The translations under genes and the position numbers were made by a program. 64,000 bases of DNA from Antedon mediterranea (lineage: Eukaryota; Echinodermata; Crinoidea; Comatulida; Antedonidae): NCBI RefSeq assembly GCF_964355755.1, contig NC_092676.1:4818288-4882287 (forward strand). Reading direction: 5' to 3'. The notes beneath the pieces are model-generated. The model ran no database searches. It was not told the DNA's origin and saw only the letters and a program-made list of their open reading frames with translations. Shown in pieces: positions 21,901 through 57,180 of the stretch (position 1 is the first letter of the stretch; each line of letters begins with the position of its first letter).

Positions 21901-24900
21901 AAACAATGCTTGTTAAATTTGTTAAAAACTTTCCTGTGAAACAAATGATGGTCAATATATTTGTTAAAACTATGTCTGCCCCTATTAAGTGGTCACTTTC
22001 TTTATTAAAACTATGTCTAACCCCCACGCAGCTACCACTCTAAAATAATATGTACTTTATGCTTTATAACGTTGTACTTCGTTTTTATATTTCGCTAGAT
22101 GTTGGCTCACCAACATTCATCACAGAGACTTCGTGCACGTACTTCTTTGAATGGCATACACGGTATGCCTGTCACGAGCACCCTACGTGTCAGGTTACCG
22201 TGGGAAAGAAACGATACGACCTTGGCTTACTTGATCAGGAAGGTAAAAATTGGGTCGCTCTGAACAGTGACGAGGTGGAGAGCGGTACGTTTATTCTGAA
22301 CGTGTGTGACAAAATTGTACGAGACGAGACGAAAAATGTGGGGTCAACAAAATGTGGAACAGAAGACTCTGCCTGCTATATTGGTAAAATAATTAATATT
22401 CAAATAACAGCTGATTCTCAATAATGTATTTTTGTCCTGTATCATAAGGAAATTTGTGATTCAGCATCACATGTGCATCCCATGTGATGATGGGACCCTA
22501 ACCAAACCATAACCATAGAATATGGTAAAATGATGCTTTAGGTAGTTTAATGGTTTAATGGTTTTAAATTTATATAGCACAAAATACAAATAGTCTCTAT
22601 GCGCTGTTTAGCACAAGTGTGAAAATGAAAATGTTGATGTAAAATAAACCACGAAAATAGCCTAAGAAAACCGAATAAATTGACCAAGACAACAGAAAAA
22701 AAATCTCACATCATCACACTATTTCACTAACTTGTCAAGACAAGCTAGCTATTTATTCACAAGTGTCATAGTGATGTGAGCATCTGACTGTCCTGCCTAA
22801 CAAACAATAAAATGTATAAGGTAGTGGCACTGATGTATTGACTGTCAAAAATCATGGTACTATGACTGAACCAGGATTTGAACCAAGGACCCTTGCATTA
22901 TTTCACTAAATGCTGTAATTATACTGAAACAATAATAATAGTTACTTCTTATATAGTGCATGTAAGCAGGCTATCTCCCCAAGACATAAATTGAAGTAAA
23001 ACAAGAAATGACAAAGTTGTTAGATAAATGACAAAGTTTGTTTAGAAAAGGAAATAAGTTTTTAATGTTTAGTAAATGATTTTACACACAAAAGTTTTTT
23101 TTTCTGAAGAGGGTTCTGATGTGAAGGACATTGGTGTGTTTAAATCATCACCTGTATTTGAGGACAATCATCTGACATTGAAATATACCAAAGGTGGACC
23201 ATGTGACAACAAGAAACAGATCTCAACTATCATTACTTTTTCCTGTAGCCCAGGTAATATTTGTTTGTTATTTCATATGCATCCAGCTGTGAGTAAAATT
23301 CCAATTACAGGATGGATAAACTATTTTATAATTTATTTTGCTTATAAATTAAGTCTCATTTGAGGCTTAGGAGGTGGAGTTGAAAAAGTTGTGAGTCACA
23401 ACCCTGGCACTAAGTCAGGATTGAACCCTGGACCTTGGGATTGGAAGGCAAGCATGTTAACCACCAAGCAACAGCTCCACTACAAATTAATGTCTTATTT
23501 CATTTATTGCTGTTTTTGTTTTTAAATATAAATGAAGTTTATAAACCCCTTCTTGAAACTTTAGAAAGTTCAGAAATTGGGCATGGATTTTCCAGAGTAT
23601 AATTTGTGATTAAACTGAGTATGTAGGTTTTTTAGATATGAGGTCAAAGGTTGAGGTTTGTTCATGCTCTCTAAAAGAAATATGCTGTTCTTTTAATACA
23701 ACTGTCCTAAAGCAGATTTTTTTCTGTCCTAAAGGTTTTTTCTACTATGTAAAATACATCCTGGGGAAGCATGCCCCCACACCTCCCCCTACATTTTGAA
23801 ATTCAATAGGATTATTATAATTAATTTAATTTCACAATTTGTAGGCCCGGATCCCCTTATTTGAAAATCTTCCACTATTTCCATTGGTTCTGTACAACAA
23901 AGTAAAAATGTAATTGTCTCCCAGGTCCCCTGATTATAATTTTTCTTTCAATTATGTTTTATTGTTCAACATGTACATTCTTTAAATTTTATTTGATTTA
24001 AGGTGACCTAGAGAGTGCTCCTGTTTTTACCCGTAAATCCAGTGACGGTTGTATGTATGAATTTGAATGGCGTACAGCAGCAGCCTGCCCTCAAGAAGAA
24101 GCGATAAAAAGTCACAGTTGTACAGCTTATGATGATGAAAGAGGTAATCTATTGTTTGAACCGATTTCTGTATCACCCATATCATGAGTTGATTGGGAAG
24201 AATATTTTCAACAAATGAAAATCTCCTCCCCATTCAACGAATATACAAGATATATTAATATATTTGTTTTATAACACCCATTGTTCTACCTAAAGCCGCT
24301 GTTACCATCTTTTATCACTGTGCCATTCAAAAAGTCAGAGTTTCAATGTCAATAGTCTGTGCACACTATAAGATGCCATTAAATAGAACCGTTAAATGGA
24401 ACGTTTACCATGCAATAGAACTAATAATGAATGGCACACATAGGGTGTATTATAATGTGGCATTATTTTTCAAATCTATTAATTCCAGGATCTCATTTTG
24501 ATAATAAAATATCGTCATTATGTTTATCGCAAATAGCTTGATTTCGCGAGGAACGTCATTTCACAATGCATGAGAAGAGTTTGGGAGCATATGTCACAAC
24601 ATGTCCGTACAAACAACAACTCATGTATGTACGCATAGTGATAGAAAGAGACCACAACCAGAGAGAGCCCAACAAACAATAAGAAGAATTGATGTCACAA
24701 AAGCGAAAGCTTAAGAAGACTCTAACAACAAATGAACAAATGAATGAATAGTGATGTTTGCTCCCATTCTCTTCCCACAATGCATCACACACACTATTTG
24801 CGATATGCACAAATCTCTAAGCGCAATCAGAACATTTGTCAATAGCAGTATATGATAATTCTGCTAAAATGTGTAGCAGTATACAGTACTTAAATCTTGA

Positions 24901-27900
24901 TTTCATTAGGTTTGATCTTTGACCTGACCCCGTTACAAGGTCAAGAGTATACAGCAAAAGTGAATAGCACTGAATATAACTACTATATTGGTGTTTGTGA
25001 ACGTCTTACACAATATTGTATTGGCAGTGATACTGGAGCTTGTCAATTTAAAAATGAAGAGTATGTATATTTTTAATTATTTATCTTATTTAAAAAAAAA
25101 TAAAAGTCATTTACAAAGGAAAATATCAATTTTAAACATCTTGATTTGAAATATATATATATTTTTAATGTAATAATTCAGTTTACAACTATAAAGCAAA
25201 TGTTTTTTTTTTGTTAGTTCATACAGTAGAATCCCTCTGAGCTCTGCTGGGGACACCCCTCACACCTATTAAGGGCCACCTTTCCATGCAATGGGCAAAA
25301 TATGTATTAATGCTACGGCCAACTCCTATTCAGAGATTGGATCTCGAAGATATCCCTTTGGGGCTATAACTCTACTTTTTCAATCCATAATTAATTGATT
25401 CCACGCTACACATCAATTATGTATACATTTAAAGAATATTTTTAAATTTTTTTTTAGTAAAACATCGCACATCACTGGTAAAATAAACTCTAATACTACG
25501 TTAGAATATTACAATGGTGTGTTGAAGTTGACATATTTCAATGGCGACCCTTATCATGCAGTAGATGGTGAACCGAGGGAGTATAGAAGGGTAAGCTACT
25601 GCAAGAAAAAATCAGTGTTCAATTTAGAAAGATTATTGTTAAGCCCTATTTAATAAAAATTCATTTACAAAGGAAAATATCAGTTTGAAACATCTTAATG
25701 TGAAAAGAATGTCAGAACAAGTGAGTGGCCGAGCGGTTAAGACAGTGAAACCGTAATTACGTAGCCATAACATCGGGTTCAAGGCTTACTCGCTTCATTG
25801 TTCTGATGGTAGAACAATTCTTCTCGGATAAGGACTATAAACCATAGGTCCAGTGTACACATCTGCCTCATGGTTCACTTTAAAGAAGATAGTACATCTT
25901 TCGAGACGAGTAGGGGGTTACCCCAGTGTACTAGTACACACACAGCCACTGATCATAACTGGGGCCTCTGGGAGACCAGTCTTTGACTGAAGAGGTTCGC
26001 TCAGTATAAATAAATAATAAACAATTATTTTTGGAAAAAATCATTTCAAAATTACACTTTTAATCAATCTCATTATTTTTGTTTATTTTATAAACCAGTT
26101 AATTTTAAATTTCTCTTTTTGTAGACTGAAATTGTGTTCATATGTGATCATAGCCAAGCTGATTCCTCTCCTGAATACGTATCGGAAAATAATCATTCTT
26201 ACTTTTTTGAATGGTCCACTATGTACGCCTGTCCTCAAAAACCAGTTGAGTGCATAGTCCGTAAAGGGAGTCAGCAATATGACTTATCAAGGTAAAGTAA
26301 CTTGGAAGGCAGACTTAAGCTCCTATCTGATCAGTGACGTAACAGCTCAAGAGCATATAGGGCCCCATGCGCACTTGTTCCCAGAGAAAGAAACACATTA
26401 AAATATGAAAAAGGCTAAAACAACGGCCGTGGCCTTCAGCGTTGGGGGCCACTTAAGGTTCCTAAACATGAGGGCTAATGTCTTTGTTACTCCCTGTATC
26501 CGAGATTAACAAGTCCTCTGAAATTACGATTATGTGTGCGCTAAAATATCTGGTCAAATTTATCTTGTAAGTAGACGCCTACCGCAAATTAAACAAATAC
26601 TTTATTCCAATTCAAGCTTCTTTGCTTGATTGGTGGTTAAAATATATTGATAAATTGGAAGGCAGACATAAACTTTTTTCTGAGATTGAGAGGCCCTCAG
26701 AAATATCGACAATATGTACACTAAAATGTCTAAATCAGCCTGTGAATTAGGGAAATACGTTACAACCAAAGTTGTTCCTCATGATTGGATAACATATTTC
26801 TCTTTTTCTTTTTAATTTGGTTAGCTTATCCGGTTCCGATGCACTTGATGATGACAATTGGTCAATTATTGATGACAGTATTGAAGGCCACCAGTATAAA
26901 TATTATTTACACGTGTGTAAGCCCCTAAAGCCTGTAGCTGGCTGTGATGTCATCGCATCATCTTGTATGACAGAGATTGTTGATGGTAAAGTAAGTACTG
27001 TATGTTGTTAAAACATACAAAATATTTGGGTGCCGTCCATAATATGACTCCGGTAAATTTGAATAAAGTGCCGCCTAGGACTTGTAGTAACTTGGCCGCC
27101 TAGGACTAGCATAACGTAGAGCGAGTGAGGACTTAAAAAACTGCTATTTATCAAAATTGACCTGGCATTTTAGTAATTTACTTTCAATAAATTATTTAGA
27201 ATTATTTATATTTAGGAATCATTCTTAATTCAATGCAAAATGTGCTAAATAGATCACAAACTACTCGTTTTGTAGTTACGAATATAACTGGTGACTGGTC
27301 GCTTTAAGAATATGAAATTGGGATCACCTCAAAAGTTTCACAAACGTGTGACGTATGCGTTTCCTTTATCGTATTCATAAGGTTGTGAAACCTCTCTATT
27401 AATAACCAAGGTTCAACTGAATGTTTACACTAGTACCCTTTTAGTTAAATTTACAGTTTTATGAAAGCGTTTTCTAATTTTCTCCTTATTAGGAAGTTCA
27501 AGTTCACGGTAATCTAGGCGTTTCCAAAACCTCTCCAGTAATTGAGAGCGTCGGTCATGTGAAACTTACCTACAGCAATGGAGATAGTTGTGACAATGGC
27601 AAAGTTTCAGAGACACGTATTCATTTCATATGTGAAAAAGGAGCCTTAGTAAGTGTTATTAAGCTCTGTCTACACTAGCAAACTTTATGTCACATGAAGA
27701 TGTCACATCACTACTATATTTCGGAATATCACTACCATATTTGGGCATCACACTTTTTTTGTCAAACTAGTTTGATAGTGTAGACAAAGCTTTAGGACTC
27801 TGACACGCTGTGGATGAATTATAATGATACTTTACATATATAAAATAATAATATATATAATAATGTAATGTACCTTCATGATTGTTTACCAATCATAATG

Positions 27901-30900: not shown

Positions 30901-33900
30901 AGTTAATAAACCTAGAGATGGATTATTTTAACTACTGGCTACTTCAACACCCTAATCTAGTTTAAAGCTCTGTCTACACTATCAAATTTTATATGACAAC
31001 AAAGTGTGATATATGGACATGATAATGTCATATCACTACCATATTTGAGCATATCACTACCATATTCGAGCATCACTACCATATTCAACAACATTATTTT
31101 ACAGGTAATCGTAATTCTACTGTGGAAATTACCTTCCTTTGTCGTCATGAAGTTTCTGGTAATCATCATGATTTGACGTTTCTGCGGAAAGACGACAACA
31201 AATGGCTCTTCAACTTTGAGACTCCTTACGCGTGTCTACCACAAGCCGTTGACTGCTTGATATCCGACAGTCATGGTAATGAGTACAACCTCACACCACT
31301 TTCCAAGGAAGATGGCAACTGGGAAGTGGTGGACACTAGAGATGAAAGCAGCGATTTGCGATATCATATCAATGTTTGTCGCCCTCTAAACAACGATAAT
31401 GGCTACAATTGCCCAGGTAATAAATCTATTGTTGGTGTTTTTTATATTTAAACGAACACAGTTAATCGATTTTATTAGATTTTAAATTTTTCATAAAAAT
31501 GTATTGATCAAATAAGGACTACTGTAAAGTTCAAAGGGCAAAGGTCAAGTACAACATCTTAAGTGTTACAATTTAAATTTGGTAGGTAGTGCCATTGGGT
31601 CATGCCAGACATCTACCAAAGGTGGTTTACCCCATAGTCTTGGATACAACCATCCATTTCTAAAAGTTAAAGGGCAAAGGTCAAGTGCTTTACCATCTTA
31701 ATTGTTTAAATTTGACACCCTTATTTGTAGGTGGTGCCATTGGGTCATGTCAGACATCTACCAAAGGTGGTTCACCGCGTAGTCTTGGATACATCCAGTC
31801 CATGCCGGAAGCAGCACCAGATGGCAGTATCAGTATACAGTACGAGAATGGAGATGTCTGCAAAGATGGCATTCGATACAGCACAAGAATTATTTTTGAA
31901 TGTTCTGATCGTCCAGTAAGTTTTTTTTTTTTATGTTATATTCAATAACATATTTCTTCATTTTTTTTCCTATTCTTTCCCATAAAGAAGGGGGCTATAC
32001 TGTCCATTTTAACACGGGCCAATCAGTGACACCCCTATCAAGGATACATTTTGATGAGTCCCTGTATTTTAAACTATTTGAATCCAAGAGAAACAGGTGT
32101 AGTACAGTAGAAAGAAATCTGCTCAAAAAAAAACACAAAAAAAACGCCACAAAATCAGTTGGTATAAATAATATCGCTAAATATTATTACATTTATAGAA
32201 GTTTTTGACTGAAATTCAGTTTGATAATAAGTATATCTAGATTTAAAATATAAACATTTAGAAATGATAATTTAATGTTACTTTTCTTCAATTTTGAAAT
32301 TTCTAACCAAGAAAATTTTTTTTAAATATTCTTTTAGGGATCACCAGTCTTGCAAGTTGTCAGCAATGGTTGTGAATATGTTTTTTCATGGCAAACTCCA
32401 GCAGCCTGTCCATTGAAGGTAATTGTGTTATATATTATTATTATTATATATTATTATTACATATTTAATTATTTGAAAAATGTGCTCGGTAATTATGAAT
32501 TAGGATAAAGAAAATGTGGTTAAAAAATATAAAGCTCTGTCTATACTATCAAACTAGTTTGACAAAAATGTGTGTGATGTGCCCAATAGTTTATGATGTC
32601 ATCGTGTCCATATATGAGCACATCATATTTTGTTGCCACAAATAGTGTAAACAGAGCTCTACGCATGTTTTTATGAGGGTATTGTGAGCCAATATATACT
32701 GTATACAGTATACATTTTTGCTGTTACTGTTTTGTGAGAGCTTATAAGAAAAGATGACTAACTTTATATAACATAAGATAACACTGGAGCTGAAGCTCTG
32801 TCCACACTATCAAACTAGTTTGACAACATAAGTTTTATTCAACTGTGTTTTACAAAGGTATCTCTAACAACTGTACTAAAAAATAGTATATTTTATAAAG
32901 CCTTGTCTACACTATCAAACTTAATGTGTCAAAAAATGTGATGAGCCCATTTATGCTGGTGATATTAGTAAATATGTGATGTGACATCATCATGTCCATA
33001 TATAAGGCACATCGTATTTTTTTTCTCACATGGAGTTTGATAGTGTAGACAAGGCTTTATAGTTGAAAATCAATTTGATTTATTTAATCATTATCAACGA
33101 AGATTTACAATATACCACAGAAAGAAAATAAAATAAACTGAATCGAATTTCTTTAATTTTGTTTAGACCGACACTGGATCTAACTGTGTAGTACAGGATC
33201 CTGAACTTGGGTTCCAGTTTAACCTCTCCTCACTCCACAACCCTAAAGATGACTACGTAGTTACGTCTGGAGAGTATGAGTACCGCATTAATCCTTGTGG
33301 CAACCTAGTGAACCCTTCTGGTAGTTGCAACAAGCCGGGAGTCGGAGCATGTCAGTCTAAAGACTCTGGGTCGGCAGCAGATTCATTCCAAAAAGTTGCA
33401 GGTAATCATTTTCTTTGTGATATACTGCAACCCTGTGTAAAGAATGGAACATTCCGCTATAATAATACAATTTTGTACTTAAATGTCTTTTTAAAAATAT
33501 TTTTCAAATAAAGTTATTGTTTATTCAGTTATATTGGTGCATTTTATAGTTAGTGGTCACTAGACTTTAACAAGATAACTATTTTAGATCGATTGTTTGT
33601 GAAATTATGTGTAGCTCACTTTCTTTCTTTGGAAAACCAGCCAGGGCCGTAGCCAGCATGAGGCAGAAGAGGTGCTTTAATTTTCACTACCAAGCCCAAT
33701 TCCCTAGCAGAGATCGTCATATTTCATATTAATGATTGTATTTAAAGCATCTTTGCCATGTCTGTTTTTAACCTCTCGCTATGGCATTGCCAGCTCAAGT
33801 GTGCACAGAATAGTTCACTATAACTACATATTACTATTTACAATTTGTTTATGTTTATAGGAATGGGAAATACAAAGTTAGTATATGAAGGCGGCCATTT

Positions 33901-36900
33901 TAAACTGAACTACACCGACGGAGAAGCATGTCATAAGAAAGTCTACAAAAGATCTACTGCTTTTATATTTTATTGTGATAAGCAGGTAAAAGGTGAGAAA
34001 GTTTGCCCTTTTATATTCTTCAAACCACACAACCTATGCTCATTTGTTTTGCTTCACAACCAGGTCATAGGTCATTGAGAGATCTTTGAAGACCATAAGT
34101 ATAGTCTGTACTGTACTACAGTAGCATATTTGGTTGATACCATGAATTCACTAGATGACTAAACTAGATGGTGCCCATCCATTGACCGGTGTAACCACTA
34201 GTGCCATTGAATGAACAACTCATGAATATGCATATGTTAATGAGCTACAGTATACTTATTTACCATTATTGAATTTTATGAATATGCACAATATGCTAAT
34301 TTATCAATCAGGAATATTCACAATATGTTAGTAAGCTATAATTATTTAACATTTATCATTAAACAATTTCATGAATATTCACAATATGTTAATGACCTAT
34401 ACTTATTTCAACTGTTCATTTACCATTAATCAATTTCATGAATATTCACAATATGTTAATGAGCTATACTTATTTCAACTGTTCATTTATTATTATTCAA
34501 TTTTATGAATATTCACCATATGTTAATGAGCTATACTTATTTCCACTTTTCATTTATCATTATTCAATTGAATATTTACAATATGTTAATAAGCTATATT
34601 TATTTTAACTTTTCATTTATTATTAATCAATTTCATGAGTATTCACAATATGTTAATGAGCTATACTTATTTTAACTTTTCATTTCATGAATATGCACAA
34701 TATTCAAGTGAGTATACCCATTTCATCTTTCCAATTATCATTGTACAATTATTGGACATCTGTAATTACAGGAGCGGGGGAACCAAAGTTCATCAACGAG
34801 ACAAGTGACTGCACATACGTGTTTGAGTGGGCCACGTCACTGGCTTGCCCACCGTTCGAACTAGTAGAATGTAGTTATCGTAACTCGCAAGGAACTCAGT
34901 TTGATTTGTCGTCTTTGACGCATACTAAAGATAACTATAAGGTCATGCCGTTTTATCAGACAACAGCGAAACCAGATATATTCTACATAAATATCTGTCG
35001 GCCTCTAGTACACTCTCATAATGTTGAAGGTATGAATATCAAATTATTGTAATAGTCATGGTCTACATTTAATGTTTTTTAAGTTTATATTTCTTTGGGT
35101 TCTAACAGAATAAAACTTGGCCTGTAAGTGAGAGGTTTCTGGTTCAAATCCTACCAGTGGGATAGAACTGCTAAAATGTATGCTATATATTTTAGCTGAG
35201 TAATATACATAGCAATTCTTATAATGTACTGTACATATGAAATTGCTATTCATCAATAGCCTCCTTTTAATCTAATCTTAAGCCTTGTCTAGACTAAAAA
35301 TTTATGTAACAAAAAAATGTGATGTGCCCATATATGGTACATGGTGATGTCATATCACTACCATATTTGGCCACATCACACTAGTTTAATATAGTGTAGA
35401 CATAGCTTTAAGCTTAGGTGAAAATTGATAAAGAAACATAAATGGAGCTTTAAGCCTCACTCACTGATTGGTGTTTACATGTTCTATATGATAGAGATTT
35501 TACTTTTATTTAAGCTAAATGTTTCTGTGCATTTATATGTTGCATTTAACTGTTTTCATAGGCTCAAAATGTGCTGGAAACTCGGCAGCGTGTTTACAAA
35601 CCGGCACAGCTGAAAACCCCACGTAAGTTGAAGAATTTGTGAAACAGCCTAGATAAAAAAAGCAGCAAACTCTCCTAAATCTTGATAATCATGAGCTAGC
35701 CCAAACTTGGGACCCATGGCTCATATACAGACACCCTCGGACTGACCAAAATTCAGACACCCATTGACTGACCAAAATCTGGACACGCATGTTCTGACCT
35801 AAACCCAACTGGAAGGTTTTCCAGAAAGTTCCTGTTTTTAAAAGGCATTTTACAAGTATTAATTAATGCTGGACCTGAATGATATGATTTAGAGAGTTTC
35901 AGTGTTAAGAGAATACAGTGGGAGAGTTTGGATCAAAATTGAATTATTTCATATATACACACATGTTTCAGGTAGCCTTATGCCTAAATCATTATTTTGT
36001 ATTTATTTGATTTAATTGAAACCAACAGCTATAATTATCGCCACTAATAGGTTTGATACAAAGAAAGCCAGGACTGTTTAAAGCACCTTGATTGGTCCTA
36101 ACATTGATCAAGGGCTTCTCTCGGCCTGTGTTCAAGTTGACCAGAGGAAAGGCATAAGCCAATACGTCTGAGGCAGATACTAGATGCAGGGGCTGCTATA
36201 AGAGTCAGCAGTGCTGATTTCAAATGCCTAAGCTCCATATACAGCACCCGATATTCCCAGATGATCTCCCATCCAAGCTCTAACCAGGCCCAACGTTGCT
36301 TAACTTCAGTGATCTGACGAGAACCGGTGTTTCAACGTGGTAAAGCGTGGTAAAACATAATGTATCACTTTTTTTGTTTAGATATGCTGATTTGGGGCAC
36401 ATTTCTGGGCCCCCTTCATGGATTAACAATCATCTAAGCCTAACATATGAGGGCGGCGATCCCTGTACATCAGTTGGTGAAACACTTCGTAAAAAAACAA
36501 CTATTGCATTTATTTGTGATAAGGATTCAGAGGTATGTGCTTTTTCGGTTTCATAAATACTTACCTGGATAAGTTGCCATGCCATTTAAAATAATAAAAA
36601 CACCCCTTTAAAATTTATGGGATCTACCACTATTTTGAATATATATATCAGTATTAAATAAGCTCAAAATCCAAAGGCAAATTACTGAAAAAAATGACAA
36701 TGCTGTTGGTATCAGTGGCTGAATCTCAATGGAGATACAAAATAAAATAAGCAAAATGCTAAATCAAAACGAATTATCAAATCATTACATGATCTTTATA
36801 GTAGATAATATAAATAGAACCCCCTTAATTGTCAAACCCCCCATTAAGGGGACACTTTTCAAATGAGGGAGGGAGTCATCAGACATGTTATTACATTAGG

Positions 36901-39900
36901 TTAACTACCTAACTACTGAAAAAAAGTCTTCCTGGTTTTTATGGAAGAATTTTGCCAAATTTTGTATTTGACCATATTAAGGGAAATTCATGTTTTTTTG
37001 TCTCGATTTCTGTTACAAATATTTGATTTATGTACAATTGACCAAAAATTATATTTAAAATTCATGCCTGTACCTGAGCTTTAATAGGGTTCTACTTTAA
37101 AGGAAAGTGTTATTACCTTTCTGAGACTGGATAGTAGTTCATTGTTGTCTTTTTTTTGCACAGGCTACAGGACCTGAATACGCCTATAGTGGATCGTCGT
37201 GTTTCTATCATTTCAACTGGTTCACTGAGCTTGCCTGTGGCTTGGATGAAGAGGTAGTTACCAATGACTGTACAGTTAATAACCCAGCTACAGGTATTCA
37301 ATGTCTATCATTTTTCATAATTACAAATATCCTTAAAAATTGCAGTAACTACATTTTGTTTAATACTCAAACTCTCAAATTATTTAGCAAGCTTTTATTC
37401 ACTCTTTAAACATGTTTATACATTTTTATGTTTATCATACATACTGTTTATTGCAGTGACTGCCTCATAAACTTTGACATTGAACATTGAAACAAAAATT
37501 GAATCATTACATGCATTGTTTCAGTATAAATGCAGTTACTGCAGTAACTGAAGTAGAATAATTTGAACCTTGCTTCTCTCCAATTTGAAATGTCTGAAAG
37601 CCATGTAAAATCGTCATTACAAATTGAAAGTAATGTACATTCTGCATATGTCCTTATTCAAAAATGTCTACAGTGTCATAGAGAGAGGTGACTTCAAACT
37701 CATGCAAATTTTTAAGCATCCATGATGAATGCCAAATCATTCACAGACAGACAGAGGTGATACAGTTGGCTGGTACTGTAGTTTTGTAACTATTTTTTGT
37801 TTTGTTTTTCAGGCTATCGATTTGATTTATCATCCTTAAACAAAGCTGGTGGATACTCTGTGTCTGGTGGTGGCTACATCTATAAACTAAACATCTGTGA
37901 AAAGCTTACAGGATCCGGTTGTACAGATGAAAATATAGGTAAAAACCTATGTACATACTTTTTAAAACTGTATTGTAAGTATAGTGTGAATGTGTGCTGG
38001 TCCATTTCGGCCCCTTTTTTGTGGACAGACGAACTAATGCCGCTTGGTGGTAGCTGTACGACAAAACAAATATGTTGTATTTCGACAACGTAATTCAGCC
38101 CAGTAAACTTCAGGTAGCATGTCATCCCCTCACATTTACATTTTTGTTTAGTTCCGTAGCTATGTAAAAGGGGTGCGGTTACGAGAAGGTAGCTCCTTGG
38201 TGGTGGCCATTGTTTATGCCCATTACCCCACATTAATTACTATTTTTGTAGAATCTCGTAGATATTCAATAATGTAATAGAAAGATTGATCTAGTGTGTA
38301 TCAATGTGAATGTGTGTCAAAAAGTTGTCGTGTTGAAATGTAACGAAGCATACTCTGCGATATTGTCAAAACCTAGTCTATTATTTGAATAAATCAATAA
38401 TCTTTTATTTCAACACCATAGAAAATACAAACAATACAAAAGAAAACAAAAGCATCAGCAAAATTCAAAAACTTAAAACACAATGCTCTCAGTATTATCA
38501 TCTGTGTAGAATAAAATACAAAAATCTTTTATAGCAAAAAAAAAAAAAGCCATATAAGATACAGACAGTAATACAAAAGCATCAGTAACATTCCAAGTAT
38601 TAAAAAAATTGTACTGTACTCATCATTCATTCACTCTACTCTACATCACTCACTCTCACTCAATCTTTTCATCTTAACGTGTCTTCCTTCTCTGTGCTTG
38701 ACATTAAAACTGCCCTTAAGATGTAACCTATAATTTATTACATTTATATTAATTATTATAATAATAATAACAATAATCACAATAACAATAATTACAATAA
38801 TTAAAAAAATAATAACTACTACAGTAGTAATGACTATAATTTTTATGTGTTTAAATTTTAAATGTAAATATGTATTATTATGTATGATGTATGATGTAGT
38901 ATGTTTAAGCGGATATTAGCCCTTGATGGCATTTGCAGCAATAAAGAAATTGAATTGAATCATCCATATAGAATATAGCTCTGAGCTCTTGGGATTTGTT
39001 TGGTCATATTCACAGGTGTGTGTCAACAAAAACCAGCTGGTGCAGGCACGCCACATTCTTACGACGCAGGCCACTTCAACAAACGTCTTTCATTCGACGA
39101 CGGCATTCTCATGTTGAATTACGAAGGCGGAAAGCCTTGCCATCGCGGACAGTTTAACAGAAGTTCGATCATAAACTTTGTATGTCCACACACGGACGGG
39201 GTCATAGGTCAGCCACAGTTTGTAGACGAATCTGAGGACTGTACGTACTATTTTTCATGGCATACGTCACTAGCATGTGAAAACCAGGTAAGAAAAACTT
39301 TTTTTAAAATTTCTTCTCGACTGCTGCATATCCTCAAATATAATGTATTTATAATTTTTTTACCCATTTCTACTGATAATATTTACTAAGTTTATATCAT
39401 CATTTATGTTGTCATTACACCATATGTTATATTAAATACAGATTTTAAATAAATCAATCAATAATAATAAATAGTTCCATTTCTGCTGTTAAAAAATATT
39501 ATAAATGCATTTAGAATACAAACCCTCACTTTGGATACTGGAGCTGCGACGTTCATGTTCCTCGCGTGGTTGCTGAGCATTTCGATTCGCATGAGTGCTC
39601 ATGAAAGCGTCATAGCTCATTTCCTGAGCTCTGATTGGTTGCGCAATATTTCGCTTTGCAAAAAGTAGAAACAATTCGAACTAGTAAATTTCGCTGAAGC
39701 GAAAAATCAAAGGAACTAGAATTCGTCGAAGAAGGAAGTATGACAGACAGAAACGCGAATACGCATGTGCATAGCATGACGCTTTCGATTCACGCGAACA
39801 AATTCGCCTAGTGGAAAATCGGCTTTAAGGGGACACTTTTCCATGAAACAAATGAAGGACAATATATTTAGCACTATGGCCACCAGAAAAGTACAGAAGA

Positions 39901-42900
39901 CAACTAGTACTTAGGGGACACTTTGTGGTTCCCAAAGTTGTCTCCTAATAGGGGTTCTACTTTAAAAAAAAATATACCATTTATTTTAGTACATCTGTTA
40001 GAGCTACCCTTGTAAAAAAAAGTTGAATAAATAAATAAATAAATAAATACTCTATGACTATATTAAGAATTGTTTAATCCAACAATTTTGGCACACATGG
40101 CGTTTCATACCTATACTTACTGGATACTAGATCTGGTTAAAAACAAAAATTGAAAAATGTCTTAACCTAAAAGATGGGGTATAAATATTACTTATATTTA
40201 AAAAACGATTACTGAAAAAGATTGTTTAGATACAAGTTGTAAATGTAGTTTATTTTCCTAGATTTCTTGCAAGGCAACGAACGGTGACACCACCATTGAC
40301 CTTTCACCTTTAGTCAACGAGCAAGGATATTATCTGTCAAGAAACATGGATCCATATCAAAGATTATCTGCGATATATTTGAATCCATGTCGACCTTTGA
40401 ACCCTATACCTGGAACCAGATGTCCACCAAGTGCAGCTGGCTGTGTAGTTGCAGAAGGGAAATCCCCATTTGTAAGTGTTTTATATTATATGCAAAATAT
40501 TTTACATATTCGTATCCCACCTGTCTATACAAATTCTATTAAAACAGATTACTTTAGTACTAAACATTGTTGATCTGAGTGCAACACACTTATAATATGT
40601 GAAACATATATTTTATAAGAAAAAATCTCAATCGATATCAAAGCAATCATAACCTTGTTAAAACAAGGCCATATACATGGCTTCAGTTGCATGCTCAAGT
40701 TAGTGTTTACCGACGAACCGACCGACATAGTGAGCTAAATTTCATTATCGTTGTGAAAAGTGTACAAGACTGTCTCTGTCCACAAAAGTTTGTGCGCAGT
40801 CTATTAGATGAGCATACAGTGTGTACTGTGGCGATGTGACTGCCGCGACAATGTATATTATTTTGTGCTTGATATGTGTGGTGATGATTAGCAAATAAAT
40901 TGCTTGCATACTTCATAAACTGTTTTATACTTTTAATAAACCACTTAATTTCACGTACTTGTAAATATTTCAGAGCATTGGTAAACTGAGCAGTCCACCA
41001 GTTCTGTATGACAATGGCACCGTGACGTTAACTTACACCAATGGCAGCAAATGTGATGAAAATAAAAACTACACCACCATCATTCAGTTCTCCTGTAAAC
41101 CTGGTACCTCAGAAGTGAGTAGCTCTATTTGGAGTTCAACTATACTGTTGATTCTAGAAGGAAATTATGTTCAATTTTATTCTCATTAAAACAATGTAAC
41201 ATACAAAATACTGAACTTTGTGTATTGAAAAATTACATACTAACAATATATTATATATACAGTATAAAAAATAAATAAATCTATAATCAAATTACTGAAT
41301 AAAATGACAATGCTGTGGATATCATCGGGTGGATCTCAATGAAGATGCAAAATAAAATTAAAGCAAAAAGCTAAATAAAAATGATAAAGTAAAACAGCCA
41401 GAAAAAGTTGCAGAGCTTTCAGGCAACACTTGCCCTTCATTGGTGCAGTCGACCAATTTAAAAAAAAATAAAAACATATAAATATAAACAATAAAAACTT
41501 TATACCCGGAGCAACCCTTAAAAGCTCTGTAAGCTCAAACTTTATGTAACAAAAAAATGTGATGTGCCCATATATGGACACAATGATGTCATATCACTAC
41601 CCTATATAGGCACATCACTACCATATTGGGGCACATCACACTTTTTTTGTCAAACTAGTTTGATAGTGTAGACAGAGCTTAAGTCCTAACTACATCAACT
41701 TTTTAAAATTGTGTTTACAGGGAATTCCAGAGTTAACCAGTGTATATGATTGTACCTATCGTTTCATCTGGATGACTAATCGGGTGTGTCCGCCATCTAA
41801 ATCTGACCCAATAACGACTGACTGCAAATTCATGGCTGCAAACTTGGATTATACGTTCGATTTGACTCCTCTCTCGTCGAAAGTAGAAGAGGTGGGTATA
41901 TTGAATATCAGAACAAGCAGAACATCATGAACTTTTTTTACCATTTAATATGTTATCACTATAAACATCAACAACATCAATCATATCACCATTATCTAAC
42001 ACTATCATCACCATTATGTTATCACTATCATCACCATTATTTTATCATTATCATCAACATCAGTATCACTATCTAACACTATCATCACCATTTGTTATCA
42101 CTATCATCAACATCAGTATCACCATTATCTAACACTATCATCACCATTATGTTATCATTTTCATCAACATCAATATTATCATTATGTATCCGCATCAACA
42201 CCAGCATCCTATTATATATTGTTATCATCTAAACCATTATAGGCAATTCAATAGATTATTGTAAAGTCTATTGCATACTTATTTATCTTAATGATTTCAT
42301 GTAGTTACCTGAAGGATACTCTATACATGTCTGCCAGTCTGTATCTTCGGAGTGTGATGGAGCTGTGTGCCAAAAAGGGACATCACTTGGTAGTGCTAAA
42401 AGTCAGGAGTTCTCTTATAATGGTCATAACTTAAAGGTCGTGTATAGTAATGGAGATAGTTGTCCGCATGGTAAGTTCTAAAGGCACTTAGACTTTGTAA
42501 CTAACATTTGAATGGCAGTAAAACAATAGGGAGGTTTGTAAACTTCCGAATACGATAACGAAAAAGAATACGCCATACATTTGTTGAACTTTTGAGCTGA
42601 TCCCTCTTTCATATTTGTAAAGGGTATGAATATTAGCAGTCATATTCCAGGGTTCAATCCTGATCGAGTGTCAGAATTCAATCTTAATCGAAGGTCAGAA
42701 GTCAATCCTGATCGAGTGTCAGAATTCAATCCTGATCGAGTGTCAGAATTCAATCCTGATCTAGTGCCAGGCTTCAATCCTGACCTAGTGCCAGGCTTTA
42801 ATCCTGACCTAATGCTAGGGTTCAGTCCTGACCTAGTACCAGAGTTCAGTCCTGATCCAGTGCCAGACTTCAATCCTGACCTAGTGCCAGGCCTCAATCC

Positions 42901-45900
42901 TGACCTAGTGCCAGAGTTCATGAGTCCTGACCTAGTGCCAGGCTTCAATCCTGACCTAGTGCCAGAGTTCAGTATTGACCTAGTGCCAGAGTTCATGAGT
43001 CCTGACTTAGTGCCAGGCTTCAATCCTGACCACCACTGTTTTTACCCCACTTTCTAAGCCTCAAATAAGATTTAGTTTTAAAGCACGATATAGTTTATCA
43101 ATCTAGCAATTCTCCAGTTATGTGCTGCTGTTGGATGTGTATAAAATTAAACGCCAAAAATATTAAGCTAGTAATGTTATACAGATTTAAAGAAGAAATA
43201 ATTAAAATTAAGTATAAAAGTTTCTATAATTTTGTAATTTTTTTTAAAGGCGATGGAAAAAGACGATCAGAAATTATATTTGAATGTGATGAATCACAGG
43301 AACGAGGCAAACCTCAGCTAGTTACTGTGAGTTGATCTTAACCTAACTAGTTAGTACACTGTCTATTTTTTATGACAAAGGAGATAACTATAAATAGATA
43401 GGAAAAGAAAGACATATGTGTTGACCTTAAAATAGAAATAGGGTAGTTACAAAAAAACACATAGTGTGTTGACCATAGATTATAAAACTCTGGAACATTT
43501 TCATGTTTGTCATGATTTTAATTTTTTGAGGAATTCTCAATATTTACAGATTATGGCAATTAAACACATGTTTGTATCCACCTTGTTTAGTCTGCCAAAA
43601 AATGGCAAGCAATAACCAAATTACCAAAATAACCAGTTGAATATTTTGTCAATACAAATGTTAAAAATAGAATTTCAATCAATCAATTTGATTGAAATAT
43701 TTCTTTTCTTGAGAAATTGGGTTTACTTCGTAACCACTTATTTTTTATCATGACCACACACTGAACATGCAAAAATATTTAGAAATATAATTTAATATAA
43801 GTGTTTGACATTATTCATTAAAAACACATCCATCTTGTAACTTTAAAGCTACACTATCAAACTTGATGTGACAAAAAAATGATGATGTCATAGTACTACC
43901 ATATTTGGGAATATCACTACCATATTGACACATCACATTTTTTAGGTCAAACTAGTCTGATAGTGTAGACAGAGCATTATTAATAACTTAATCATCTTTG
44001 TTTTTTTTTTGTTACAGTCCGATGATGAAGCTTGTTTTTATTCCTTCATTTGGAAAAGTAACTTTGTGTGTCCTCCTATGCATCAACCATGTCATGTGGC
44101 CAATGGGAATAAATTATATGACTTGCATTCTTTATCACGACTAACGAGTAGTTGGGAAGTAAAAAGCAATAAAAAGAAAATGTTAGTTTTTTGAATCCCT
44201 GTCAATATCAAACTTTATGTGACAAAAAAATGTGTGATGTGCCCCTATATGGACATGATGATCTCTACCATATTTGGGCACATCACGCTTTTTTTTTTTC
44301 AAACTAGTTTGAGTGTAGACATAGAGTAAGGTATCATGTCAAAGTTACTCTACTGCAGTTACTGCAGTAACATATGATTTTAATTTATTTCAATTTATGT
44401 AGTTGCTACAAGAAACAGTGTGTATGAATACCTTTAAGAAGCAACTTGCTAAATAATCGTATAAACGGGTTTAAAAGTGAACAAAATGTAGTTACTGCAG
44501 TATCTGTAGTAGAATAATTTGTTATCATATTTTTGCTAAACTTTGTGTAGTTCTTAGATTTTTTAAATACTACAATATACTGACAGTTACTCTCATATTT
44601 CTGAAGAAGTGATATTTGAAATTTCTCTCTGGCTATTTACTTTCCGTTTTTATTAATAGCTTTTTCTAATTTTCTTAGGATTTGTATAGTTAAATAATAT
44701 ATTTATGTATCATGTACAATTAGAATAACTGTATCCTTATATAAAAGCATGCTGTTTCTAATTTTAAAAATAGTTCCTTCATGTCTTGAAGAATTTAAGG
44801 CTAGGCAAACATTAAAGCAGGCTGCAGCTGTGGATGTGATGAGATGTTCGCACACAATATGAGAGGTTCATGATACCTTTCATAATTTCGCCCTAACCCT
44901 ACCTTATGATCCAAATTTTCCCTGTTTGCATTAGTCTGTTTTGGATGTAGTTATCACCACAATTAATAACACTTTGGGAGAAATTGAAAGATGTTTGTTT
45001 ATTGATTAGAATATTATCTGTATCAAGTGTAGTTTTATGATCAGTCATCTAAGATATCTGTGTTTCATGACAAGTTCAAACCAGTTGTGCAATGTGCAGC
45101 CAAGGTTTTTTTTAGCAGTATATAGACCTCTCTTGTTTTATGAAAGACTTAGGTGGTTTGAATTTGGATATTATAATGTTATGACGTTAAAAAGCTGATA
45201 TTTTTTACATTCTTTAAGAAAAAAAACTTGTCTGTATCAAGTGCAGTTTTATGATCAATCATCTAAGATACTTGCATCTGTGTTTCATGACTTCAAACCC
45301 GTTGTGCAGCCAAGGTTTTTTTTAGCAGTATAGACTACCTCGCTTGTTTTATGAAAGATTTAGGTTGTTGTTTAAAAGGTTTGAATGAGTACTTTATTGG
45401 ATATGATAATGTTAAGATGTTAAAAAGCTGGTATTTTTTTACATTCTTTAAGAAAATGAGTTGAATGAGTCAACATTTTTTAATTGACGACCACCCACTC
45501 ATTCAGACCTCATTGTCGATGCTTTGTATGCATTAATATTTTATAATTTACTGTTGTTCTGTCATTATTTAGTTTTTATGTAAACATTTGTACAGCCATA
45601 ATGAATGGACCAAAGGGCTGTGACGAGTCTGCTGCAGTATGCTCGGAAGATGGCAATGTAGTGGAGATCCTAGGAAAGGAGTACACACAAATATTGATTA
45701 CAGGTAATGACCCATAGCAGGGTTCTCTTGTATTACGGAACATCCATATATGGAAACAGAGATACAGTAAATAATACGAAAGTACACACAAAATACACCA
45801 AAATAATTTTGCCTGAAATTATGTGAAACTCATTGGAAAAAGACCAAAAGTATGAAAAAATTAAAGCCCCACACCACAAAAAAAACCCTCAGACCACACC

Positions 45901-48900
45901 CCCCCCCCCCCTAAAAAAAAAAGAAAGCACAGAGGAAAGATTCCCAAAAGGCTACCAACCTAATCCCTTTCTAGTAGCTAGTAGGTCTCCTATTGCGTTG
46001 ATTGGAGAATATTTAGAAAATAATGTAATAAAAAAACGTTTTGGTAAACCAATTGTTAAGTACTTACTTGCTACCTGTCTGTCATTTGCGTGACCAAGGC
46101 TACTAAAAATAGCCGAAACATAGCAAGTATGTACTTGAAAATTGGTTTACCAAAAAGTTAAAATTTATTTATAAAATATTAATGTAAAACCAGATAAAAT
46201 TTTTCAAGAAAAACAATGTCCTTAAAAATTGAGTAAAAATACAACTTTAGAAAATATTAAATTACAATCAATACTAATAAAATTTGATTGCAATATCATT
46301 GAAAAATAGATGTTTATATACAATAAATAGATTAAGTAAAAAATCTTGAAAGAAATTTTGATTTGTAAGTTGTAATATTTCCCTCTGTATATTATTTTAT
46401 AGATGCTGATACTAATAGTCTACAGATGGACTTCAAAGAAGGGAAAAGTACAGAATGTTCAGGAAAAAACGTTGACACAGCAATAACTTTTACTTGCGGT
46501 AAAAAGATTGGTACACCAGATTTTACAGGGTATGCTGGTTTTTTTTCATACAATAGAAGGCCAGGGGACACTGTAGGGACCCAACAAAGTTTCCCCCTGA
46601 ATAGGGCGGACATAAGACACCTATTCAGCAAATTTTTTTTTTCATACAATAGACGGCCAGGAGACACTGTAGGGACCCAACAAAGTTTCCCCCTGAATAG
46701 GGCGGACATAAGACACCTATTCAGCAAATTTTTTTGTTCATACAATAGACGGCCAGGAGACACTGTAGGGACCCAACAAAGTTTCCCCCTGAATAGGGCG
46801 GACATAAGACACCTATTCAGCAAATTTTTTTGTTCATACAATAGACGGCCAGGAGACACTGTAGGGACCCAACAAAGTTTCCCCCTGAATAGGGCGGACA
46901 TAAGACACCTATTCAGCAAATTTTTTTTTTCATACAATAGACGGCCAGGAGACACTGTAGGGACCCAACAAAGTTTCCCCCTGAATAGGGCGGACATAAG
47001 ACACCTATTCAGCAAATTTTTTTTTTCATACAATAGACGGCCAGGGGACACTGTAGGGACCCAACAAAGTTTCCCCCTGAATAGGGCGGACATAAGACAC
47101 CTATTCAGCAAATTTTTTTGTTCATACAATAGACGGCCAGGGGACACTGTAGGGACCCAACAAAGTTTCCCCCTGAATAGGGCGGACATAAGACACCTAT
47201 TTAGCAAATTTTTTTTTTCATACAATAGACGGCCAGGAGACACTTTAGGGACCCAACAAAGTTTCCCCCTGAATAGGGCGGACATAAGACACCTATTCAG
47301 CAAATTTTTTTTTTCATACAATAGACGGCCAGGGGACACTGTAGGGACCCAACAAAGTTTCCCCCTGAATAGGGCGGACATAAGACACCTATTCAGCAAA
47401 TTTTTTTTTTCATACAATAGACAGCCAGGAGACACTGTAGGGACCCAACAAAGTTTCCCCCTGAATAGGGCGGACATAAGACACCTATTCAGCAAATTTT
47501 TTTGTTCATACAATAGACGGCCAGGAGACACTGTAGGGACCCAACAAAGTTTCCCCCTGAATAGAGCGGACATAAGACACCTATTCAGCAAATTTTTTTG
47601 TTCATACAATAGACGGCCAGGGGACACTGTAGGGACCCAACAAAGTTTCCCCCTGAATAGGGCGGACATAAGACACCTATTCAGCAAATTTTTTTGTTCA
47701 TACAATAGACGGCCAGGAGACACTGTAGGGATCCAACAAAGTTTCCCCCTGAATAGGGCGGACATAAGACACCTATTCAGCAAATTTTTTTTTTCATACA
47801 ATAGACGGCCAGGAGACACTGTAGGGACCCAACAAAGTTTCCCCCTGAATAGGGCGGACATAAGACACCTATTCAGCAAATTTTTTTTTTCATACAATAG
47901 ACGGCCAGGAGACACTGTAGGGACGCAACAAAGTTTCCCCCTGAATAGGGCGGACATAAGACACCTATTCAGCAAATTTTTTTTTTCATACAATAGACGG
48001 CCAGGAGACACTGTAGGGACCCAACAAAGTTTCCCCCTGAATAGGGCGGACATAAGACACCTATTCAGCAAATTTTTTTTTTCATACAATAGACGGCCAG
48101 GAGACACTGTAGGGACCCAACAAAGTTTCCCCCTGAATAGGGCGGACATAAGACACCTATTCAGCAAATTTTTTTTTTCATACAATAGACGGCCAGGAGA
48201 CACTGTAGGGACCCAACAAAGTTTCCCCCTGAATAGGGCGGACATAAGACACCTATTCAGCAAATTTTTTTTTTCATACAATAGACGGCCAGGAGACACT
48301 GTAGGGACCCAACAAAGTTTCCCCCTGAATAGGGCGGACATAAGACACCTATTCAGCAAATTTTTTTTTTCATACAATAGACGGCCAGGAGACACTGTAG
48401 GGACCCAACAAAGTTTTTCCTCTGAATAGGGCGGACATAAGACACCTATTCAGCAAATTTTTTTTTTCATACAATAGATGGCCAGGAGACACTGTAGGGA
48501 CCCAACAAAGTTTCCCCCTGAATAGGGCGGACATAAGACACCTATTCAGCAAATTTTTTTTTTCATACAATAGACGGCCAGGGGACACTGTAGGGACCCA
48601 ACAAAGTTTCCCCCTGAATAGGGCGGACATAAGACACCTATTCAGCAAATTTTTTTTTTCATACAATAGACGGCCAGGAGACACTGTAGGGACCCAACAA
48701 AGTTTCCCCCTGAATAGGGCGGACATAAGACACCTATTCAGCAAATTTTTTTGTTCATACAATAGACGGCCAGGAGACACTGTAGGGACCCAACAAAGTT
48801 TCCCCCTGAATAGGGCGGACATAAGACACCTATTCAGCAAATTTTTTTGTTCATACAATAGACGGCCAGGAGACACTGTAGGGACCCAACAAAGTTTCCC

Positions 48901-51900
48901 CCTGAATAGGGCGGACATAAGACACCTATTCAGCAAATTTTTTTTTTCATACAATAGACGGCCAGGAGACACTGTAGGGACCCAACAAAGTTTCCCCCTG
49001 AATAGGGCGGACATAAGACACCTATTCAGCAAATTTTTTTTTTCATACAATAGACGGCCAGGAGACACTGTAGGGACCCAACAAAGTTTCCCCCTGAATA
49101 GGGCGGACATAAGACACCTATTCAGCAAATTTTTTTTTTCATACAATAGACGGCCAGGGGACACTGTAGGGACCCAACAAAGTTTCCCCCTGAATAGGGC
49201 GGACATAAGACACCTATTCAGCAAATTTTTTTTTTCATACAATAGACGGCCAGGAGACACTGTAGGGACCCAACAAAGTTTCCCCCTGAATAGGGCGGAC
49301 ATAAGACACCTATTCAGCAAATTTTTTTTTTCATACAATAGACGGCCAGGAGACACTGTAGGGACGCAACAAAGTTTCCCCCTGAATAGGGCGGACATAA
49401 GACACCTATTCAGCAAATTTTTTTTTTCATACAATAGACGGCCAGGGGACACTGTAGGGACGCAACAAAGTTTCCCCCTGAATAGGGCGGACATAAGACA
49501 CCTATTCAGCAAATTTTTTTTTTCATACAATAGACGGCCAGGGGACACTGTAGGGACCCAACAAAGTTTCCCCCTGAATAGGGCGGACATAAGACACCTA
49601 TTCAGCAAATTTTTTTTTTCATACAATAGACGGCCAGGGGACACTGTAGGGACCCAACAAAGTTTCCCCCTGAATAGGGCGGACATAAGACACCTATTCA
49701 GCAAATTTTTTTGTTCATACAATAGACGGCCAGGAGACACTGTAGGGACCCAACAAAGTTTCCCCCTGAATAGGGCGGACATAAGACACCTATTCAGCAA
49801 ATTTTTTTGTTCATACAATAGACGGCCAGGGGACACTGTAGGGACCCAACAAAGTTTCCCCCTGAATAGGGCGGACATAAGACACCTATTCAGCAAATTT
49901 TTTTTTTCATACAATAGACGGCCAGGAGACACTGTAGGGACCCAACAAAGTTTCCCCCTGAATAGGGCGGACATAAGACACCTATTCAGCAAATTTTTTT
50001 GTTCATACAATAGACGGCCAGGGGACACTGTAGGGACGCAACAAAGTTTCCCCCTGAATAGGGCGGACATAAGACACCTATTCAGCAAATTTTTTTGTTC
50101 ATACAATAGACGGCCAGGAGACACTGTAGGGACCCAACAAAGTTTCCCCCTGAATAGGGCGGACATAAGACACCTATTCAGCAAATTTTTTTTTTCATAC
50201 AATAGACGGCCAGGAGACACTGTAGGGACCCAACAAAGTTTCCCCCTGAATAGGGCGGACATAAGACACCTATTCAGCAAATTTTTTTTTTCATACAATA
50301 GACGGCCAGGGGACACTGTAGGGACGCAACAAAGTTTCCCCCTGAATAGGGCGGACATAAGACACCTATTCAGCAAATTTTTTTTTTCATACAATAGACG
50401 GCCAGGAGACACTGTAGGGACGCAACAAAGTTTCCCCCTGAATAGGGCGGACATAAGACACCTATTCAGCAAATTTTTTTTTTCATACAATAGACGGCCA
50501 GGAGACACTGTAGGGACCCAACAAAGTTTCCCCCTGAATAGGGCGGACATAAGACACCTATTCAGCAAATTTTTTTTTTCATACAATAGACGGCCAGGGG
50601 ACACTGTAGGGACGCAACAAAGTTTCCCCCTGAATAGGGCGGACATAAGACACCTATTCAGCAAATTTTTTTTTTCATACAATAGACGGCCAGGAGACAC
50701 TGTAGGGACCCAACAAAGTTTCCCCCTGAATAGGGCGGACATAAGACACCTATTCAGCAAATTTTTTTTTTCATACAATAGACGGCCAGGGGACACTGTA
50801 GGGACGCAACAAAGTTTCCCCCTGAATAGGGCGGACATAAGACACCTATTCAGCAAATTTTTTTTTTCATACAATAGACGGCCAGGAGACACTGTAGGGA
50901 CCCAACAAAGTTTCCCCCTGAATAGGGCGGACATAAGACACCTATTCAGCAAATTTTTTTTTTCATACAATAGACGGCCAGGAGACACTGTAGGGACCCA
51001 ACAAAGTTTCCCCCTGAATAGGGCGGACATAAGACACCTATTCAGCAAATTTTTTTGTTCATACAATAGACGGCCAGGAGACACTGTAGGGACCCAACAA
51101 AGTTTCCCCCTGAATAGGGCGGACATAAGACACCTATTCAGCAAATTTTTTTGTTCATACAATAGACGGCCAGGAGACACTGTAGGGACCCAACAAAGTT
51201 TCCCCCTGAATAGGGCGGACATAAGACACCTATTCAGCAAATTTTTTTGTTCATACAATAGACGGCCAGGAGACACTGTAGGGACCCAACAAAGTTTCCC
51301 CCTGAATAGGGCGGACATAAGACACCTATTCAGCAAATTTTTTTTTTCATACAATAGACGGCCAGGAGACACTGTAGGGACGCAACAAAGTTTCCCCCTG
51401 AATAGGGCGGACATAAGAAGCAAATTTAGTTACTTTTAATGAATGCTCACTTATCTCTAATTTCCAAATGCCTAAAATTATAAGTTGTTTTCCCACATTG
51501 TACCATATAAAAAATGTAGTAAAAAATAGTAACAAAATTTGTTTAATTTAAGCAAATATATATATATTCATTGTGGAAAGACGAACAGGCGCCTTTTGGT
51601 GGCAGCAGTCGACATGAAGGGACCCTTAGGGGAGAATAAAGTGGTGCTATGTGTGTCGTCCTCACTTGTGCACAATTTAGCCCAGTAGGCTGTAAAGTCG
51701 CATGTTATTCCCCTAGTTAAATTTACAGTACATTCATGTTTTTCTCTTTCAGACTCTCTGAAAATGGAGCTAATTGTGTTTACAATTTTAAGTGGCAGAC
51801 AAGAGTAGCGTGTCCAGAGGAAATGTAAGTTTATCTATAGTACTAGTAATATTTTAAATAAAAGTCCTCCAATATTTGCTACCATTTCCGTGTTCCAGAG

Positions 51901-56425: not shown

Positions 56426-56434
56426 TAAATTGTT

Positions 56435-57180
56435 AATTAGACCACAAACTCTTGGTTCTTGACCAAGTCAGTATAAAATTTAATTAATCAAGATTATTAT
56501 AATATAATTACAATTAACAGAAATGTGAGTGAAAAGGAATGAAATATCTATAATTTCAAATGATCGTATTAAGGATAAATTTATTTTAGATTTATGATAT
56601 TGATTTTTTTTTTTTAATTAAAAAGAAACAAAGATTGAACTATGTTGAACTTTAAAAGTTACAGTAAAAAAACCTGTAACATGGAGATCCAACAATCCAA
56701 CAACACATTTAACTGTTATTCTCGTAAATTGCTTGTTATGTTCTTGGTTTGAGGTTTAAGGCAAAAGAACAAAGGTATTGTGGTGGAAGGTGTTTCATCA
56801 TCTCACCTATGATTAACTTTAAAACAACAAGCTTGCACAAACTGGATTTTCTTGGCACCTGAATCATTTTCTAGAATGTCAAGCTCCTTCATCGAACATT
56901 CTAGAAAGTTGCATAATGTGACAGACCGGATATTAAGCAACACTGCATTGTAAATCTATTTCATTTATTTATTCTGTCTTTAAAGTATTGATTTCCACTT
57001 ATTACTTATTGATTGAGAAGTCGTTATCATGATTTGTTCAATTTAAAATATAATGTCTTTGTATTGATTTCCAAAGTGGTTTAGTAAATAAAGTTGAATT
57101 ATTGGACAATAATACAATGTATTCATCAAAGAAATTACAGTCAAAATCAAATCAATCAAAATTTGTTAAAACTAATAAAC
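56435..57180. other. receptor intron 39, AT-rich
   Basis: No exon, ORF or clear mobile element recognised. Confidence 0.5.

Follow-up and report, generated by a model that had tools for sequence, protein, structure and literature searches.

The CI-MPR gene and the exons of repeat 11

The stretch of DNA analysed here (the window; 64,000 nucleotides, G000:C7:4818288-4882287) comes from the genome of Antedon mediterranea, which was searched as 354 Mb in 18 contigs. Its + strand carries a CI-MPR (IGF2R) gene with 15 CIMR repeats in order, each of about 145 residues, as is characteristic of the CI-MPR family. The exon chain was obtained by running a profile of mammalian repeats against stop-to-stop frames and joining the matches in frame by splice scoring with some inspection. 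The resulting model starts at repeat 1 and does not include the signal peptide at the 5' end. The window contains repeats 1 to 14 plus one modelled exon of repeat 15, the first; further exons of that repeat and the tail are found in the adjoining 10 kb downstream (L003). Pfam CIMR matches in the genome numbered at least 10, and all among the matches listed sat at this locus; the score of repeat 11 was 56.5 bits (cut-off, 22.5). In the gene model, the junctions joining 20898 to 21528 and 41891 to 42305 were not the top-scored splice choices, those of repeat 13 (43250-43326 and 44018) were placed by eye, and repeats 14 and 15 were assembled only roughly. The gene and the parts of repeat 11 are as follows.

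15719-54130, + strand: CI-MPR (IGF2R) gene, the part in the window, repeats 1 to 14 plus the first repeat 15 exon modelled (HMM matches, splice chaining)
37164-37293, + strand: exon shared by two repeats; 37164-37241 finishes repeat 10, and 37242-37293 encodes the opening residues of repeat 11
37813-37938, + strand: second exon of repeat 11 (YRFDLSS...DENIG)
39016-39287, + strand: third exon of repeat 11, with Gln, Arg, Glu, and Tyr together
39024-39026, + strand: lectin-set Gln of repeat 11 (VCQ), in the D9 Gln column
39159-39161, + strand: lectin-set Arg of repeat 11 (FNRSS), in the D9 Arg column
39228-39230, + strand: lectin-set Glu of repeat 11 (VDESEDC), in the D9 Glu column
39246-39248, + strand: lectin-set Tyr of repeat 11 (CTY), in the D9 Tyr column

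The original prediction, that repeat 11 carries a complete mannose 6-phosphate (M6P) set, was borne out in the spliced translation: Gln (39024, VCQQ), Arg (39159), Glu (39228), and Tyr (39246) were found where claimed, with Arg eight residues ahead of the FVC Cys and a Glu-Tyr spacing of six. The range given for the repeat (37164-39248) was correct for the repeat 11 exons but not for 37164-37241, which is the end of repeat 10. At the junction joining 37938 to 39016, a donor at 37974 scored higher (7.5 versus 6.4), but 37938 was kept because it preserves the conserved spacing; since all four residues lie in exon 39016-39287, they are independent of this choice. Among the 13 modelled repeats, repeat 11 (37813-39287) was the only one with the Gln-to-Tyr columns within one exon; it has no intron immediately ahead of the conserved Pro strand, whereas 9 of the 13 have one.

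Several features of the surrounding sequence are recorded here as separate observations. An open frame in L003, not joined to the gene by modelled splicing, ends in DDSDEELLPTI and a stop; this tail frame (L003:3938-4090) bears three acidic-dileucine motifs (ENELLQDV, DDELLGDV, and DEELLPTI), the type of sorting signal expected in the tail of a CI-MPR family member. The mammalian receptor tail has one main GGA motif, at its end. Between repeat 15 and the tail, L003 contains three hydrophobic stretches, none of which was placed in an exon. A 96-bp tandem repeat of about 51 copies (mostly 97 to 99% alike in the copies listed) occupies about 46500-51400 of the window and fills a repeat 14 intron, with a long open frame continuing from the exon. 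Some 125 tandem copies of a 16-bp unit occupy about 54160-56440, within the intron that follows the first repeat 15 exon modelled, and each of the three + frames has long open stretches there; a repeat 13 intron contains an open frame of FNPDLVPG-like repeats (42596-43054) that is probably another minisatellite.

The lectin residues across the repeats

The 15 window repeats were aligned by MAFFT with 12 mammalian rows (11 repeats, with D3 from cow and human), a comparison that covers one non-mammalian full-length receptor, that of the A. mediterranea genome, against mammalian rows. Repeat 11 had the Gln, Arg, Glu, and Tyr of P-type lectins in register, in the same columns as human D9 and window D9, in agreement with the geometry originally proposed from repeat 9; neither its Arg nor its Glu was displaced. 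The full set was found only in repeats 3, 5, 9, and 11 of the 15 window repeats, while the odd repeats 1, 7, 13, and 15 missed at least one residue. The other repeats of interest are listed below.

19827-22175, + strand: repeat 3 including introns; full set (Gln 20825, Arg 21592, Glu 22125, Tyr 22140)
24092-26235, + strand: repeat 5 including introns; full set (Gln 25044, Arg 25585, Glu 26185, Tyr 26200)
32413-34851, + strand: repeat 9 including introns; full set (Gln 33353, Arg 33950, Glu 34798, Tyr 34816)
41793-44074, + strand: repeat 13 including introns; Gln 42371, Arg 43261, Tyr 44039, and Asp (44021) in the Glu column
53950-54130, + strand: first modelled exon of repeat 15 (5' edge uncertain); Gln (ICQTS)

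In window repeats 3 and 5, Glu was one residue closer to Tyr than in repeats 9 and 11, as in mammalian D3, and human D5 had Glu at both possible positions. Repeats 13 and 15 each kept three of the four residues; the four columns of repeat 15 read Gln, Val, Glu, and Tyr, the last three of them encoded by downstream exons in L003. Repeat 13 (41793-44074) looks like a decayed lectin repeat, with Asp for Glu and the other three residues in register. On the mammalian side, the comparison agreed with the known retention of sets in repeats 3, 5, and 9 and partly in 15 (bovine D15 keeps Glu and Tyr), and it upheld the statement that mammalian repeat 11 lacks the set, human D11 having Phe, Tyr, Asp, and Leu in the four columns.

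The resemblance of repeat 11 to D9 extends beyond the four core residues, as a His directly after the loop-C Cys was present in window repeat 9, window repeat 11, and human D9 and in no other Cys-bearing row of the 27. The equivalent residue in D3, counted back from Arg391, is S386, which the available part of the source places in loop C, a loop that shifts upon binding. The sequon of D9 (N1312, placed by count), which is reported in the accessible text of PMC11735522 to be important for D9 activity, was absent from repeat 11.

We consider it probable (about 70%) that repeat 11 is an ancestral (phospho)mannose-binding repeat which probably still binds sugar in A. mediterranea. As in repeats 3, 5, and 9, the side chains of Gln, Arg, Glu, and Tyr would sit at the floor of the MRH barrel and grip the hydroxyls of mannose, which predicts four full carbohydrate sites in the receptor (3, 5, 9, and 11). 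We infer that the pocket folds and binds, and phosphomannose would be its presumed ligand; an identical quartet is also present in MRH proteins with unphosphorylated mannose as ligand. Structure prediction for the 91-residue repeat 11 exon alone with seven window fragments gave a mean pLDDT of 47 and a pTM of 0.32, with two short strands only. The missing sequon, together with the nearly intact repeat 13, in which Asp for Glu indicates that partial decay occurs in this gene, would also suit a repeat 11 that keeps the residues but no longer binds sugar, either through changed loops or because neighbouring repeats cover the site. We regard such a relic as unlikely in view of the retained loop-C His and of the presence of all four residues in register in repeat 11, while odd repeats 1, 7, 13, and 15 lack at least one of them.

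Correspondence with mammalian repeat 11 and origin of the set

Whether a sugar set in this repeat bears on the IGF2 site depends on window repeat 11 being the counterpart of mammalian repeat 11, and sequence comparison makes this the most likely assignment. Among the 15 window repeats, human D11 matched repeat 11 best (172 versus 134 for the next) and did so again when the pocket columns were masked (171 versus 133). For 9 of the 12 mammalian rows, the top-scoring window repeat carried the row's own number, the exceptions being D1, D7, and D10; human D7 also matched window repeat 11 best, by 100 to 99. Mammalian D6, D12, D13, and D15 were left out of this row comparison and of the trees described below. 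Window repeat 11 and human D11 also share the FSWHTxLACE end.

In the reverse direction, raw scores of window repeat 11 were 199 with human D3 (177 with cow D3), 192 with D5, 183 with D9, and 172 with D11, and phmmer against the cow receptor gave 63.0 bits for D9, 60.3 for D5, 55.4 for D3, and 53.2 for D11. With the pocket masked, D3 was ahead of D11 by 174 to 171. When rows and columns were centred, window and human D11 became each other's best match. The raw scores thus contain no clean reciprocal D11 match, a pattern expected if the window repeat has been conserved and its mammalian counterpart has diverged; the missing reciprocity fits the ancestral reading and, slightly, an old conversion.

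A 26-row tree built without the pocket columns (bovine D3 was dropped and human D3 stands for D3) paired window D11 with human D11 with support of 98/94. In an 18-row control tree, which leaves out W01, W02, W07, W14, MD1, MD2, MD7, and MD14, the pair was unstarred, although the path from window D11 remained shortest to human D11. The end branches of window and human D11 were 0.33 and 2.05, respectively, in the 26-row tree and 0.69 and 5.11 in the 18-row tree, a contrast that may be overstated because raw identities to the six lectin rows differ little (31 to 39% for window D11 and 27 to 36% for human D11).

Out of the 6,435 ways to pick 8 of the 15 repeats, the odd/even split had the highest within-group similarity, and it was again the best with the pocket columns masked; repeat 11 grouped with the odd-numbered, lectin-containing repeats even under masking. 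In the 26-row tree, the odd/even labels needed 4 changes (8.9 on average for shuffled labels), and a single clade of odd repeats was neither recovered nor rejected (AU P = 0.12). The receptor therefore looks like a series of multiplied pairs, each of one lectin-type and one non-lectin repeat, and this parity argues for loss of the set on the mammalian line. An earlier proposal by Brown et al., as cited in the available part of PMC6117607, has the odd repeats facing in one direction and binding ligands. Repeat 13 fits the loss reading as well, since adding the Arg and Glu of human D13, as seen in its aligned segment, to the three residues of window D13 (Gln, Arg, and Tyr) completes the set.

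We also considered that repeat 11 acquired the set in this lineage from repeat 9 or 3, whether through gene conversion or through a copied exon, in which case it would carry no information on the ancestor. Such a secondary gain would account for window repeats 9 and 11 being the top-scoring pair among the 15 repeats (268), for window repeat 11 scoring higher with mammalian D3, D5, and D9 than with D11, and for repeat 11 alone having the whole set in one exon, with no Arg-Glu intron. However, repeats 9 and 11 are only 39% identical in protein, the exon cut of repeat 11 is unlike that of repeats 3, 5, and 9, and the best match of human D11 to repeat 11 survives masking of the pocket. No sign of recent copying from repeat 9, 3, or 5 was seen in the longest shared DNA words (10, 11, and 10, respectively), which did not exceed the maxima of 100 shuffles (11, 11, and 13). 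A recent conversion is thus unsupported by identity, shared words, and exon cut alike, and we judge secondary gain in general to be improbable. Independent gain through point changes in a non-lectin repeat 11 is a mere possibility and hardly credible, as four matched residues are expected 5.5e-5 times over 11 repeats (5e-6 per repeat, from the residue frequencies of window repeats 1-13 and with Glu allowed at both positions known from lectin repeats; 1.1e-3 over 11 repeats if Tyr is taken as structural and given free), and the loop-C His would have to be added to these.

The predicted sugar tag, the timing of the proposed loss, and known systems

An ancestral repeat 11 that still binds phosphomannose presupposes a tag to bind, and the genome contains genes of the tagging pathway. 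One exon matched solved GNPTAB at 93 bits, and its contig holds additional Stealth matches; NAGPA (uncovering-enzyme)-like segments were present at two loci, one of which was checked against solved NAGPA; and CD-MPR exons were present on contig C3. Apart from the latter, a weaker Man-6-P_recep match with two stops was seen at G000:C1:36247829-36248023. Searches of the genome for insulin-family sequences, bantam, RAG1, mollusc haemocyanin, and COX1 gave no match; for all of these except COX1 no signal at all was obtained, and the outcome does not speak for an absence of the genes. From the presence of GNPTAB, the NAGPA-like loci, and CD-MPR, an M6P tag is plausible here. A. mediterranea would in this respect be unlike the fly, for which the accessible text of PMC4610224 describes the lack of GNPTG and of the uncovering enzyme and a receptor, LERP, without the M6P residues. 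The original proposal that repeat 11 was, or here still is, a sugar-binding repeat is consequently supported as far as sequence can test it, by the register of the residues, the grouping with odd repeats, the lack of a recent repeat 9 copy, and these pathway genes.

The further proposal, that IGF2 binding arose on a former lectin site, agrees with the residues in the four columns, which in human D11 are F1567, Y1606, D1630, and L1636. We take F1567, Y1606, and L1636 to contact IGF2; none of these hydrophobics was found in window repeat 11, which has Gln, Arg, and Tyr in their places. Human D11 numbering was counted from I1572 (PMC6684648). Along the line to mammals, repeat 11 would have lost the set, and the same positions would later have gained the IGF2-site hydrophobics.

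The order of these steps was approached with solved repeat 11 chains. As an indirect probe of each PDB chain, single residues were swapped in the query, and the bit-score change relative to the unchanged query was recorded. Eight chains of single-repeat length were taken as D11 (1e6f, 2cnj, 2l29, 2m68, 5iei, 2l2g, 2lla, and 2l21), only some of which are so named; 2l2g, 2lla, and 2l21 are presumably from opossum, echidna, and chicken, respectively. For the swaps Gln-Phe, Arg-Tyr, Tyr-Leu, and Glu-Asp, in this order, the score of 2kva, which we take to be a D5 chain and expected to carry the set, fell by 2.8, 2.9, 3.5, and 1.2, and that of human 1e6f rose by 3.2, 4.1, 2.3, and 1.4. Similar rises were obtained with 2cnj, 2l29, 2m68, and 5iei (3.2 to 3.5, 3.9 to 4.1, 2.2 to 2.3, and 1.3 to 1.4), with 2l2g (3.2, 3.7, 2.3, and 1.3), and with 2lla (3.8, 3.6, 2.2, and 0.5). 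The changes for 2l21 (1.1, 0.7, -0.1, and 1.0) followed neither pattern in the columns of Gln, Arg, and Tyr. No score-shift sign of retained Gln, Arg, or Tyr was seen in the eight D11 chains. Chain 2l21 seems to carry neither the lectin nor the IGF2 residue set, and loss of the lectin residues may therefore have preceded the arrival of the IGF2 residues. Provided that 2l21 comes from chicken, the scores suggest this order, and we infer a loss ahead of IGF2 binding.

How a sugar receptor gained a protein hormone ligand and a part in the mammalian imprinting conflict is a standing question, and the account given in the sources available begins with mammals. In the portions of the sources available, the IGF2 affinity of CI-MPR is described as a novelty of placental mammals (PMC6779898), invertebrate CI-M6PRs are stated not to bind invertebrate insulin-like peptides (PMC8805411), and an exon splice enhancer is said to have shaped the domain 11 CD loop in monotremes (Williams 2012, cited in PMC6684648). 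An extant receptor whose repeat 11 has a whole lectin set would supply the preceding state, in which, as the columns suggest, the growth-factor site was possibly built on an old sugar pocket; the order of loss and reuse becomes testable via single repeats, and the number of sugar sites assumed for non-mammalian receptors would change if the reading is true. What appears to be new is a sugar set in an unexpected repeat of a known receptor. The literature searched, with its thin coverage of the relevant journals, contained no description of lectin residues in repeat 11 outside mammals in the parts available, and its support for newness is weak. A broader scenario, for which the arguments seem to us evenly balanced, would have animal CI-MPR begin as pairs of a lectin and a non-lectin repeat, with every odd repeat (at least 3, 5, 9, 11, 13, and 15) once a sugar site; the mammalian growth-factor function would then rest on a lectin pocket put to new use in two stages, the sugar residues being lost first and IGF2 contacts gained at these positions afterwards, and in A. 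mediterranea repeat 11 would continue to serve as the fourth complete M6P site.

Compared with known systems, window repeat 11 shares the Gln, Arg, Glu, and Tyr columns with the P-type lectin repeats 9, 3, and 5 of mammalian CI-MPR. With mammalian D9 it further has in common the Glu-Tyr spacing of six and the loop-C His, and it differs from it in lacking the sequon; in gene structure it departs from window repeats 3, 5, and 9, in which Gln to Tyr is split over exons. The IGF2-binding repeat 11 of mammals occupies the same place in a 15-repeat receptor, with Phe, Tyr, Asp, and Leu in the human protein in place of the Gln, Arg, Glu, and Tyr of the window. For repeat 15, the fourth reported sugar site of mammals, bovine and window D15 both keep Glu and Tyr, the columns that the bovine comparison covers, and window D15 has Val in the Arg column. 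Mammalian repeat 13 has an FN2 insert, which aids IGF2 binding; three FN2-like letter patterns had no match in the six unspliced frames of the window and L003, and the modelled window repeat 13 is 133 residues long. Drosophila LERP is likewise an invertebrate CI-MPR ortholog with an acidic-dileucine tail, and in the available text of PMC4610224 it is described as having five repeats in which the M6P residues are not conserved, whereas the A. mediterranea gene has 15 repeats with four full sets.
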